DNA of 24,143 nt from a virus, in IMG/VR virus record IMGVR_UViG_3300031974_000870, positions 1-24,143 of that record. One strand, 5' to 3'. The translations under genes and the position numbers were made by a program. The notes below the pieces were generated by a model. That model had not been told where the DNA came from. It searched no databases and saw only the letters and a list, made by a program, of their open reading frames with translations. Position 1 is the stretch's first letter; the number at the start of each line of letters is the position of its first letter. Below, piece by piece: positions 1,047-11,381 of this stretch.

Positions 1047-1140
1047 TATTTACGTAGCTGATTGCGATAAATGTTTACAACCTTACTGGAACGAAAAAAA
1101 CAATACTATTTGCAATAAGTGTGAAAAATTAGATAATTAG
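1039..1140 (+). CDS. 33-residue zinc-ribbon-like micropeptide
   Basis: A 33-residue frame with two CxxC pairs (CDKC at 9-12 and CNKC near 26-29), which is the minimal arrangement of a four-cysteine zinc ribbon. The ATG lies inside the end of the previous gene. It is the last gene before the promoter-like motif and terminator at 1137-1228. Several similar tiny CxxC proteins occur elsewhere in the window (see 9079, 9866 and 12300). The function is unknown; zinc binding is inferred from the cysteine spacing only. Confidence 0.5.
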   Translation: MGDIYVADCDKCLQPYWNEKNNTICNKCEKLDN

Positions 1141-1150
1141 TATATAATTA
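1121..1150 (+). promoter_or_regulatory. Promoter-like motif upstream of a short terminator-bounded region
   Basis: A perfect TATAAT lies at 1143-1148. At 16 bases spacing the upstream hexamer GTGAAA (1121-1126) matches 4 of 6 positions of TTGACA. The 14 bases TTAGTATATAATTA (1137-1150) are identical to those at 9686-9699, in front of a structured RNA unit. A start near 1155 would give a transcript of only about 70 bases before the terminator at 1197-1224. Confidence 0.45.
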
Positions 1151-1196
1151 CATCAGTATAAGAAAATACATACAATATCTACACAACTAGTACATT

Positions 1197-1228
1197 AAAC
1201 CCACATTAATTTGTGGGTTTTTTGTTTC
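1197..1228 (+). terminator. Intrinsic terminator
   Basis: The 8-base-pair stem AACCCACA (1198-1205) / TGTGGGTT (1212-1219) has a 6-base loop and is followed by a T-rich tail (1218-1223, then GTTT). It ends the small-gene cluster at 246-1140 and separates it from the lysis-containing operon starting at 1285. Confidence 0.85.
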
Positions 1229-7606: not shown

Positions 7607-8093
7607 ATGCATATTACTGTACGCATTAATAATTAATAATTTTGCTGTTGGTATAACACCTACTGTTGATGATTTTAAACAGCTTGATGATTGCGATAAT
7701 TATATACCTGGTACTTGTTATCAATATGCAACATTACTTGTAGAACATTTTGAAGTAGAAGATATTGAAATAGCAGTAAAAGTAATGTGGTGTGAAAGTC
7801 GTAATAAATCAGCTGCGTATCGTTGGCAAGATCAAGATAGTGGTTTATTTCAAATCATACCAAGTACTTGGGGTTGGGTTAAAGAACATCACAATATACC
7901 TTACTGGGATTATCCTATTGGAAATACCTACGCACAGTTCATACCAGCGTATAATATTGAAGTAGCAGGATTATTAGTAGCTGATATGCACAGTAGGGGT
8001 AATTATTGGCAACCGTGGGACGCTAGTAAAGATTGTTGGGAAGATACAGACAAATGGATTGCGAAGTGGAAAAGTGAAGTTAATAAACGCTGA
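7596..8093 (+). CDS. Secreted lytic transglycosylase-like protein
   Basis: A 165-residue protein with a hydrophobic signal-like N-terminus (CILLYALIINNFAVG, residues 5-19). The SLT/goose-lysozyme-like core has the catalytic glutamate E67 in WCESRNKSAA, then DSGLFQIIPSTWGW (81-94) and a distal YAQFIPAYNIEVA segment, the standard ES...GLFQ...AxYNI order. Such enzymes cut the glycan between MurNAc and GlcNAc. The gene lies in the replication region, 11 bases overlapping the initiator gene, not with the endolysin/holin pair. It could modify the host wall early, act as a second lysin, or be a virion-associated wall-degrading enzyme made from an unusual location. Confidence 0.78.
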   Translation: MITKCILLYALIINNFAVGITPTVDDFKQLDDCDNYIPGTCYQYATLLVEHFEVEDIEIAVKVMWCESRNKSAAYRWQDQDSGLFQIIPSTWGWVKEHHNIPYWDYPIGNTYAQFIPAYNIEVAGLLVADMHSRGNYWQPWDASKDCWEDTDKWIAKWKSEVNKR

Positions 8094-8724
8094 TTGCTTA
8101 ACATATATGAAAACTATGGAAGATAAAACCATAGATTTTGTTTTAACAAGTCCACCATATAATCGTAAACGTAATGATAAATATGAACTGTATAATGATT
8201 TAATTGTTGATTACTACGAATTCAATGTTGAAGTTATAAACCAACTACTTCGTTTGACCAAAAATTATGTATTTTACAATATACAAACAAATTTTTACAA
8301 CAAACAAGATGTTTACAAATTAATTGGTAAATTTAGCAAGAATATAAAAGAAATAATTATATGGGAAAAATCCAACCCACTACCAGCAAGTGGCAAGGCA
8401 ATAACAAATGCAGTTGAATATTTTATTGTGTTAGGCGACAAACCATTAAAAAGCAATACAACATATACAAAAAATATTATTAAAAGTTCTGTTAATTCAA
8501 ATATGCCAAAGTTTCATAAAGCAGTAATGAAGCAAGAAATAGCTGATTTAATTATTGAAAAGTTTGCTTATAATTCAAACAATGTTTTTGATCCATTTAT
8601 GGGTTTAGGTACTACTGGTATTGCAGCTGCTAAAAATAACAAAGATTTTATTGGTATTGAACTAATTAAGGAATATTACGATTATGCAAAAGACAAGTTA
8701 AATGAACTACAACAAAAAGTTTGA
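8074..8724 (+). CDS. DNA methyltransferase (N4-cytosine/N6-adenine, beta class)
   Basis: A 216-residue amino-methyltransferase. The catalytic motif IV SPPY (26-29, in DFVLTSPPYN) precedes the AdoMet-binding motif FDPFMGLGTTG near the C-terminus, so it has the beta-class order. SPPY is commoner in N4-cytosine enzymes, but N6-adenine activity is possible. I chose GTG at 8074 (MKLINADCL, the usual family start); an in-frame TTG at 8059 adds five residues without a better ribosome-binding site. It overlaps the transglycosylase gene by about 20 bases. No cognate restriction enzyme gene is recognised. It probably shields phage DNA from host restriction or marks it for regulation. Confidence 0.85.
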   Translation: MKLINADCLTYMKTMEDKTIDFVLTSPPYNRKRNDKYELYNDLIVDYYEFNVEVINQLLRLTKNYVFYNIQTNFYNKQDVYKLIGKFSKNIKEIIIWEKSNPLPASGKAITNAVEYFIVLGDKPLKSNTTYTKNIIKSSVNSNMPKFHKAVMKQEIADLIIEKFAYNSNNVFDPFMGLGTTGIAAAKNNKDFIGIELIKEYYDYAKDKLNELQQKV

Positions 8725-9257: not shown

Positions 9258-9286
9258 TCAATGAATAGACTAAAGGTATGTGCAAT

Positions 9287-9679
9287 ATGTCCAATAAAGG
9301 ATATGACGATATAAAAGAACTTGTAGCAAATGTTATGGGTTTGAACGATTGGTTACAAGACATTGAACCAGTAGAAGCTGTATTACCTAATGGTCATTTT
9401 GGGGGTATGAACTTTACGATTAATTGGTTAGACAACACTAAATCACGTTATTGCATACGATTAAATTTTGACTTTACTTACGATATGCAAATATATCAGT
9501 ACCAAAACTACAGACAGCTTGGACTTGCCATAGAACGATCTTTACCACGTGAAAGTATATTGATGTTACTCAGTACAACGTTTCAAGAATTAACAGCACA
9601 ATCCAACCAAGTATTAGAAAACCTTAAATTTGAGTTAAGCAAAGAAACACAAGAAATATTAAAAAACGACACACAATAA
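9287..9679 (+). CDS. Hypothetical protein, 130 residues
   Basis: An acidic protein with a helical N-terminus, a central probably beta-rich region (FGGMNFTINWLDNTKSRYCIRLNFDFTYDMQIYQYQNY) and a long helical, glutamine/glutamate-rich C-terminus. I chose ATG 9287 because AAAGG (9272-9276) lies 10 bases upstream; the ATG at 9278 is only 1 base from it. No family is recognised. It ends shortly before the promoter of the structured RNA unit. Its place among nuclease, methyltransferase and WhiB genes suggests an accessory early role. Confidence 0.6.
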   Translation: MSNKGYDDIKELVANVMGLNDWLQDIEPVEAVLPNGHFGGMNFTINWLDNTKSRYCIRLNFDFTYDMQIYQYQNYRQLGLAIERSLPRESILMLLSTTFQELTAQSNQVLENLKFELSKETQEILKNDTQ

Positions 9680-9699
9680 AAATATTTAGTATATAATTA
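9670..9699 (+). promoter_or_regulatory. Promoter of the structured RNA unit
   Basis: A perfect TATAAT lies at 9692-9697, inside the 14-mer TTAGTATATAATTA (9686-9699) that is repeated exactly at 1137-1150. A CACACA hexamer (9670-9675) lies 16 bases upstream and shares CACA with the -35 of the 5029 promoter. Counting 7-8 bases from the -10 places the start at 9704-9705, exactly where the outer RNA stem begins. Confidence 0.7.
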
Positions 9700-9704
9700 G
9701 ATTA

Positions 9705-9836
9705 GGTTTGTAAGTAGCAATAACCACTCATAGCGAAGTTCAAAATCTGCGAAGAAACCTTAACAAGTCGGTGCAAGACACTTTTGTTAAGATAAACGGC
9801 CACTAGGTAAGTAAAATTAGCAAGGGCTTACAAACC
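9705..9836 (+). ncRNA. Structured small RNA or leader, about 132 bases
   Basis: The segment is closed by a perfect 10-base-pair stem GGTTTGTAAG (9705-9714) / CTTACAAACC (9827-9836). Inside it, a second perfect 8-base-pair stem CTTAACAA (9759-9766) / TTGTTAAG (9784-9791) holds a 17-base apical part that can pair further. The segment has no reading frame of its own. The predicted promoter start coincides with the first base of the outer stem, and a terminator follows at 9964, so it looks like a discrete RNA gene or structured 5' leader for the micropeptide at 9866. I could not match it to a known riboswitch, ribozyme, tRNA or 6S RNA. The repeated GCGAAG at 9733 and 9749 is a possible functional element. 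Confidence 0.65.
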
Positions 9837-9865
9837 AAACGTACTAGAAACAAAAGGAGTTCAAA

Positions 9866-9943
9866 ATGAAAAGTTGTAAAAAACACCCAAGCAAAACGTC
9901 TTATGGTTGTAACGCTTGTTCTCATATAAGAAATAACGTTTAA
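9866..9943 (+). CDS. 25-residue CxxC micropeptide
   Basis: A tiny frame with a strong AAAGGAG site (9853-9859) six bases before its ATG. The product has C4, H7, C15 and C18 (SCKKHPSKTSYGCNACSH) plus H20, enough ligands for one zinc ion. It lies between the structured RNA (9705-9836) and the terminator (9964), so the transcript of about 285 bases has this as its only obvious coding content. It may be the regulated product of the leader, or the RNA may be the functional molecule with a small peptide riding along. Confidence 0.55.
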   Translation: MKSCKKHPSKTSYGCNACSHIRNNV

Positions 9944-9963
9944 GGTCAAAAGAAATTTACATT

Positions 9964-9992
9964 AAAGCCACCAACAACGGTGGCTTTTTTGT
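9964..9992 (+). terminator. Intrinsic terminator closing the RNA/micropeptide unit
   Basis: A perfect 9-base-pair stem AAAGCCACC (9964-9972) / GGTGGCTTT (9979-9987) has loop AACAAC, followed by TTT and G. It ends the unit that begins at the 9692 promoter and lies only about 15 bases before the WhiB-like gene. Confidence 0.92.
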
Positions 9993-10004: not shown

Positions 10005-10655
10005 ATGACGTGGCAAAACAGGGCGTTGTGCAACAATATGCCAACCAACTTATTTTTCGCAGGTACAGATAAACGTACTGATAAACAATATTGGGAAACT
10101 CATTTAATGTGTAGGGAATGTCCAGTAAATATAAATTGTTTGCAATATGCGTTGGATCAAGATTTAGAATATGGACTTTATTGCTTACCAGAACGTGTAC
10201 GGCGTAGATTACGTAGCAAACCACCTAAAGATTTACTAGCTACTATGCAGGAAACATTTACAACAATAGATATTATTGAAGCTGAATTTGATTACCACGG
10301 CAAGTTAGTAAAAAAGCGTTGTTTACGGTGCAACAGAAAGACACGTGGATTTGCTAACGACACAGAAAACTGGGGTGGCAAAAGTCATATATGCGTTAGT
10401 TGTCATATAGAAATACAAAATAATAAGCAAGTAGATAAATTATTAGATCGTGAAAAGCCAAGCAAATCAAGACCAGAGTTTGATAGCTATGGACAGCTTG
10501 TAAGTAAATGCTGTACTAAATGTGGCGAAAGAAAGGTTGCACAAGAGTTTAGTAAAAGACCACAAGGCATTGGTGGTAAAACAAGCTGGTGTAAAGCGTG
10601 TACAAGAAAGAATTTAGAATTATGGCAACAAAAACAAAATAAAAAGGTAAAATAA
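10005..10655 (+). CDS. WhiB-like protein fused to two zinc modules
   Basis: A 216-residue protein. Residues 1-70 form a WhiB-like domain with the four iron-sulphur cysteines C9, C36, C39 and C45 (C-x26-C-xx-C-x5-C). The segment EYGLYCLPERVRRRL (55-69) follows, in place of the usual GVWGG turn and basic helix. WhiB proteins hold a redox-sensitive [4Fe-4S] cluster and act with the principal sigma factor, so this one probably alters host or phage transcription. Residues 95-140 and 159-205 are two similar zinc modules, each opening FD(Y/S)xGxLVxKxC and carrying CxxC pairs C106/C109 with C130/C133 and C170/C173 with C196/C199. This C-terminal extension is not part of ordinary WhiB proteins of about 100 residues. 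The gene follows a terminator and lacks a leader. Confidence 0.85.
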   Translation: MTWQNRALCNNMPTNLFFAGTDKRTDKQYWETHLMCRECPVNINCLQYALDQDLEYGLYCLPERVRRRLRSKPPKDLLATMQETFTTIDIIEAEFDYHGKLVKKRCLRCNRKTRGFANDTENWGGKSHICVSCHIEIQNNKQVDKLLDREKPSKSRPEFDSYGQLVSKCCTKCGERKVAQEFSKRPQGIGGKTSWCKACTRKNLELWQQKQNKKVK

Positions 10656-10670: not shown

Positions 10671-11381
10671 ATGGAGTTAGTAAACAACGATTTTAGACAA
10701 TGTGAGTGGCCAAGTAATATACAAACAATTATCTGTGATCCACCGTACAACATAGGATTTAATTACAAAGGTGGTTACAAAGACAACATAAAAGAAGAAA
10801 ACTACAATATGTTGATATGGGAACTGCTTGATTATTCGTATAAGTTAAGCAATAACACATCAAATATGTTTTTAATTAATTATCCAGAAATAGTTGCAAA
10901 CTTATGGGAAACAATTAAATCAACAGATTGGAATATACATCAATGGATTAATTGGGTTTATCCAAGTAATGTTGGTCATAGTAAAAAGAGATTTACACGT
11001 GCAAGTAGAACAATATTGTGGCTTACAAAAGATAATCCAAAAATATATATAGATCGTGTTACACAACCTTACAAAAACCCCAATGATAAGCGTATTAAAG
11101 AACATATAGCAAATGGTCGTACAGGAACACATCTTTACGATTGGTGGGAAATAAATTTAGTTAAAAACGTAAGTAAACAAAAAAATGATTATACAAATCA
11201 AATACCAGAAGAAATATTAAGTAGATTAATACTTACTACAACAGATTATGAAGATGTAGTAGCAGATCCTATGTGTGGCACAGGTTCAACACTTATAACT
11301 GCTACTAAACTATTTAGAAAAGGTTGGGGTTGTGATATAAATAGCGACTTACAAGAATTATGGAATAATTATGATATTTGA
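10671..11381 (+). CDS. DNA adenine methyltransferase (beta class)
   Basis: A 236-residue amino-methyltransferase with DPPY (23-26, ICDPPYNIGF), the usual motif IV of N6-adenine enzymes, ahead of the AdoMet motif DPMCGTGST (199-207). The order is beta class. Central segments INWVYPSNVGHSKKRF and RTILWLTKDNP are typical of the family's target-recognition side. A strong AAAGGAGTGT site precedes the ATG. It follows the WhiB-like gene and precedes the PAPS-reductase-like gene. As the second methyltransferase in the window, it may modify a different target from the 8074 enzyme. No linked restriction gene is seen, so it is likely an orphan enzyme for protection. Confidence 0.88.
   Translation: MELVNNDFRQCEWPSNIQTIICDPPYNIGFNYKGGYKDNIKEENYNMLIWELLDYSYKLSNNTSNMFLINYPEIVANLWETIKSTDWNIHQWINWVYPSNVGHSKKRFTRASRTILWLTKDNPKIYIDRVTQPYKNPNDKRIKEHIANGRTGTHLYDWWEINLVKNVSKQKNDYTNQIPEEILSRLILTTTDYEDVVADPMCGTGSTLITATKLFRKGWGCDINSDLQELWNNYDI

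Follow-up and report, generated by a model that had tools for sequence, protein, structure and literature searches.

The window, by which we mean the whole stretch of 24,143 nt analysed here, contains an accessory-gene cassette between gene A and a gene for a WhiB-domain fusion protein. The cassette is ordinary in kind, belongs to a poorly known phage family and carries one orphan structured leader, an extra segment of 134 nt with a perfect 10-bp stem at its ends. We read it as a moron-type cassette in which the orphan 5'-terminal structure may well act in cis on the stability or translation of the mRNA, a reading that we hold with about even confidence.

The virus itself would be a phage of Ca. 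Actinomarina, a tiny, streamlined and uncultured ocean bacterium, and a member of the AG-919-G14 phage family. We place it there because its large terminase (TerL) is 85% identical to a homologue on one contig in the Ca. Actinomarina single-cell genome AG-919-G14 and because a WhiB fusion gene lies downstream of the cassette; the AG-919-G14 phage contig, which has been described as among the earliest bona fide Actinomarinales phages, also carries a WhiB fusion (PMC7771536). The two phages differ at the site considered here, which is empty in the AG-919-G14 phage, with 21 nt between gene A and the WhiB gene. The gap is ∼20 nt in 12 relatives (eleven viral ones and the AG-919-G14 single-cell phage), and the absence of the cassette from relatives suggests that it is dispensable to the phage.

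Other inserts occupy this spot in four relatives, and three of them (L001, L003, and L012) have the same promoter and leader as the window. Five more cassettes with the promoter/leader module lie at a second site (L388, L389, L391, L392, and L393); the window has the matching slot with no gene left in it (Table 1), and this slot is filled in five relatives, by five different genes. We thus had eight sister cassettes, at two sites and in five relatives, with eight different small genes behind one promoter and leader. The aligned module reads TATATAAT, 9 to 11 nt, GTACaaAACAAAAGGAGT, and ATG, and a control with the reversed pattern returned zero matches. The cassettes in the slot corresponding to 1138-1222 all terminate in a near-identical TACATTAAACCCAC...GTGGGTTTTTTG, and the L012 cassette also ends in a strong terminator. 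Given eight different proteins, a shared module and near-identical terminators at that slot, the promoter/leader and the terminator are fixed and the gene is exchanged. The five proteins encoded in the slot are all different and 57 to 127 aa long, and they are candidates for host-takeover or anti-defence functions.

Table 1. Features of the cassette, its flanking genes and the second cassette site, in window coordinates
Feature	Position	Strand	Basis or remark
Second cassette site, no gene left	1138-1222	+	TAGTATATAAT promoter, TACATTAAACCCAC..GTGGGTTTTTTG terminator; after small ORF 994-1140
Gene A, 133 aa, left flank of insertion site	9278-9679	+	ORF; relatives ∼80-84% identical in viral contigs
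Accessory-gene cassette	9680-9990	+	Between gene A and WhiB-fusion gene
-10 box TATAAT	9692-9697	+	Common to eight cassettes in five relatives
Predicted transcription start	A9704/G9705	+	Prediction
Extra 134-nt segment, candidate 5'-terminal RNA domain	9705-9838	+	Alignment, distances, fold; missing in 8/8 sister modules
P1 5' arm GGTTTGTAAG	9705-9714	+	Fold; perfect 10-bp outer stem
P2 5' arm CTTAACAA	9759-9766	+	Pair probability ∼0.9; perfect 8-bp stem
P2 apical pairs	GGTG 9770-9773 / CACT 9779-9782	+	Fold
CTTTTGTT	9781-9788	+	8/8 complement of AACAAAAG (9849-9856) beside SD; possible alternative pairing
P2 3' arm TTGTTAAG	9784-9791	+	Fold
P1 3' arm CTTACAAACC	9827-9836	+	Fold; perfect 10-bp outer stem
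Conserved leader ACGTACTAGAAACAAAAGGAGT	9839-9860	+	Same leader in eight other cassettes
SD AAGGAG	9854-9859	+	Within conserved leader
25-aa ORF MKSCKKHPSKTSYGCNACSHIRNNV	9866-9943	+	C-x2-H-P...G-C-x2-C (CHCC), zinc-finger-like
Intrinsic terminator	9964-9990	+	Stem 9964-9987, 9 bp, 5 G-C, T run
WhiB-domain fusion gene, right flank	10005-10655	+	PF02467, E 1.7e-12; 17 viral relatives

The -10 box, start, both stems, SD, 25-codon ORF and terminator are all present where the preliminary description had located them. Its claim of a self-contained gene that brings its own promoter and terminator is also well supported, as the site in relatives is either empty or taken by other cassettes that use this promoter/leader module. 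Both the promoter and the terminator are predicted, with the -10 box and leader conserved across nine cassettes, including that of the window. No recognisable -35 lies upstream of the TATAAT, and the promoter is missing from the output of our promoter scan because the scan requires a good -35. The 25-aa CHCC peptide matched no family and had no relative among phages; a scan with the peptide pattern returned two hits, both of which were judged to be chance.

The genomic features of the cassette are those of a phage moron: its flanks are adjacent in relatives, and it has its own predicted promoter and its own predicted terminator, an arrangement given for phage morons and prophage accessory loci (PMC7067206, citing Juhala et al. 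2000). Unlike morons, it uses a promoter and leader that are stock modules found at two sites, and it has a structured leader. There is also a likeness to the SAS/ESAS of cluster K mycobacteriophages, in which a conserved RBS-containing sequence stands directly before variable small genes and, for some SAS, an inverted repeat and promoter lie upstream (PMC3203893, PMC11373665); the window module too is a conserved RBS-containing sequence upstream of unrelated genes. The SAS consensus GGGATAGGAGCCC, however, is 13 bp long and present in 11 to 19 copies per genome, compared to the leader GTACaaAACAAAAGGAGT and one or two modules here, and the ESAS inverted repeats are 17 bp long with spacers of 4 to 13 bp and have little support as RNA hairpins, whereas those of the window are 10 bp long and 112 nt apart. 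Since the likeness is one of layout and not of sequence or repeat geometry, we did not file the module as SAS/ESAS.

The module of the window differs from its eight sisters in length: the distance between the beginning of the promoter motif and the start codon is 179 nt, compared to 41 to 47 nt in the sisters. The additional 134 nt, found in this module only (1/9), run from the predicted start to the conserved ACGTAC and sit between the -10 box and the leader, leaving both promoter and leader intact. The nearest sister leader, that of L393, is near-identical from ACGTAC to ATG and has no such segment. Because the sister cassettes manage without it, the segment is not required for the module.

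Taken alone, the 10-bp outer stem is unremarkable, since about seven such stems are expected per window by shuffling (7.0 ± 2.7 perfect stems of 10 bp or longer within 160 nt, compared to 5 in the window itself). A perfect 10-bp stem closing the 134-nt segment at its ends was obtained in only ∼1e-5 of shuffled segments of the same composition, with 3 by 5 end offsets allowed, a value that is an estimate and not a formal P-value because the segment boundaries are uncertain by a few nucleotides. The test is meaningful because the limits of the segment were set by alignment and not by folding. As the stem closes exactly the extra segment defined by comparison, the segment is likely to represent a real RNA domain at the 5' terminus or a real insertion bounded by inverted repeats. 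It is this comparative evidence that makes the structure credible, and not the outer stem alone or the energy of the fold, which is modest for the 132 nt (z of -1.83, with 5 of 200 shuffles as good) and gives z values of -1.06 for the domain with the leader and ORF start and -1.35 for the whole unit.

The segment could also be a neutral insertion, a stretch of DNA that happened to enter between promoter and leader and has been tolerated there; its stem would then be incidental or a functionless relic. This would account for its occurrence in a single module of nine, for the failure to find homologues and for the modest folding energy, but not for a perfect stem placed exactly at the segment ends (∼1e-5 by shuffling) or for a promoter and leader that are still intact, and we consider it fairly unlikely. 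A DNA-level element, either a very small MITE-like mobile element with terminal inverted repeats or an operator of two inverted sites, would have the perfect 10-bp repeats bounding the segment act at the level of DNA and not of RNA, and the ESAS of mycobacteriophages do couple inverted repeats and promoters upstream of conserved start-associated sequences (PMC3203893, PMC11373665). Here, however, the spacer is 112 bp and not 4 to 13 bp, the phage family and 42 Actinomarinales genomes contain no second copy, and no target-site duplication was clear by eye in the alignment of the flanks. With a single copy and no clear duplication the segment does not have the marks of a MITE-type transposon, and a DNA-level element is in our judgement unlikely.

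In our preferred reading of a cis-acting leader, a cassette of these phages would combine a promoter and a ribosome-binding leader from stock with a single exchangeable small gene and a terminator, and in the cassette that separates gene A from the WhiB-fusion gene the exchangeable gene would be that of the 25-aa CHCC peptide. Because the 134-nt segment separates the start point from the leader, the 5' end of the transcript would fall inside the 10-bp stem. P1 would then close an RNA domain of ∼132 nt, leaving the ribosome-binding site single-stranded on its 3' side. The domain would most likely act in cis: by hiding the 5' end it may make the message more stable, in the manner of 5'-terminal stem-loops, and/or it may offer a protein a binding structure through which peptide expression is tuned. 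The analysis demonstrates the cassette, the shared modules, the extra segment and the stem at the ends of that segment, and we infer transcription of the cassette, folding of its RNA in vivo and a stabilising or regulatory role.

The predicted ensemble is dominated by P1 and P2, and the domain has the architecture of a closing stem (P1), a 44/35-nt bubble and an apical hairpin. Pairing probabilities at the SD are 0.04 to 0.33, and the MFE structure leaves the SD open. Stabilisation of bacterial mRNAs by 5'-UTR stem-loops of the ompA type is established (PMC7509114), and the window shares with them a 5' end predicted to lie inside a stem and a free SD downstream. The domain is larger than ompA-type stabilisers and has an internal bubble, and the host RNases may differ. 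A GC(A/G)A-type motif occurs five times (GCAAT, GCGAAG, GCGAAG, GCAAGA, and GCAAGG) in the RNA domain between 9716 and 9825, and these copies may be protein-binding repeats.

The preliminary description had also suggested a riboswitch-type leader. In such a riboswitch or translational switch, a ligand or protein would shift P2, and CTTTTGTT at 9781-9788 would pair either in P2 or with the SD region, masking it. This segment is an 8/8 complement to AACAAAAG at the SD, with a p of 0.03 when only Watson-Crick pairs are counted, but the p rises to 0.26 once wobble pairs are allowed, and the SD-masked state is ∼6 kcal/mol less stable than the fold with a free SD. During transcription GGUUU may pair first with AAACC at 9755-9759 before P1 displaces it, an early hairpin that would compete with P1 as a switch might. 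There are precedents in the Downstream-peptide motif, a riboswitch candidate found before short ORFs, and in the manA and wcaG riboswitch-type motifs of cyanophages (PMC2864571). The Downstream-peptide/glutamine riboswitch motif RF01704 in particular shares with the window a structured leader before a short ORF and an occurrence in marine sequences, but cmscan found no match to it in sequence or structure. No terminator was found between the RNA domain and the 25-aa ORF. With the SD predicted to be mostly open and no terminator inside the leader, a classical riboswitch is unsupported, and we regard a switch of any kind as quite unlikely.

A search of Rfam with cmscan gave no match of the RNA domain (9705-9836) to any family, riboswitches and 6S included, even at an E value of up to 10, so the specific classes proposed earlier are unsupported. 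Phe_leader and STnc430 appeared as weak Rfam matches that begin downstream of the domain and depend mostly on the terminator hairpin. GCCACTA recalls the B12-riboswitch box, and other portions recall glnA RNAs, but both likenesses were dropped because cmscan found neither.

Searches for relatives of the RNA domain were likewise negative with blastn against phage records, with pattern scans of viral and genome contigs, with both blastn and a single-sequence covariance model against 42 Actinomarinales genomes, and with the covariance model against 395 class-level genomes and 44 phage records. This absence is weak evidence, since pattern scans and single-sequence models are insensitive. DNA-pattern hits in viral contigs lay in unrelated sequence, scored near background, or both; the weak covariance-model hits that we inspected were in coding DNA or dominated by the shared leader; and the 22 nt matched by blast in one host genome fall inside an open reading frame. 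Without homologues there is no covariation and no sign of selection, which counts against our main reading, and of the discrete structured RNA put forward in the preliminary description what stands is that the stem matches the inserted segment in position and falls at the start site. The suggested mimic of a host RNA found no evidence in the 42 Actinomarinales genomes. A trans-acting RNA (an sRNA or a decoy, for example, 6S-like) with the peptide secondary is very unlikely, since the self-contained promoter and terminator and the fold of closing stem, 44/35-nt bubble and apical hairpin that it could claim belong to a transcript that continues into a strong SD and ORF, with no match to 6S or other Rfam families at E values of up to 10 and no host relative found.

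These phages of Ca. Actinomarina package swappable genes, with a fixed promoter, leader and terminator around a variable gene, in at least two slots, and a search for genes of host takeover or anti-defence could readily begin with these slots. Should the inserted domain prove to be a functional RNA, a leader element would have been added onto a stock module, which would be unusual. That the 134-nt domain represents a new class of phage cis-regulatory RNA, which can be transferred whole to the start point of the stock accessory modules in Ca. Actinomarina phages, is a bolder proposal that we think improbable.

Of the flanking genes, gene A had no match in Pfam or PHROG. The C-terminal part of the WhiB fusion (residues 151 to 210) matches a PHROG endonuclease VII, whereas the fused part of a relative has been described as ADP-ribosyltransferase-like (PMC7771536). 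Two DNA methyltransferase genes flank the region (8059-8724 and 10671-11381); both match PHROG 67, and the second also matches PF01555.
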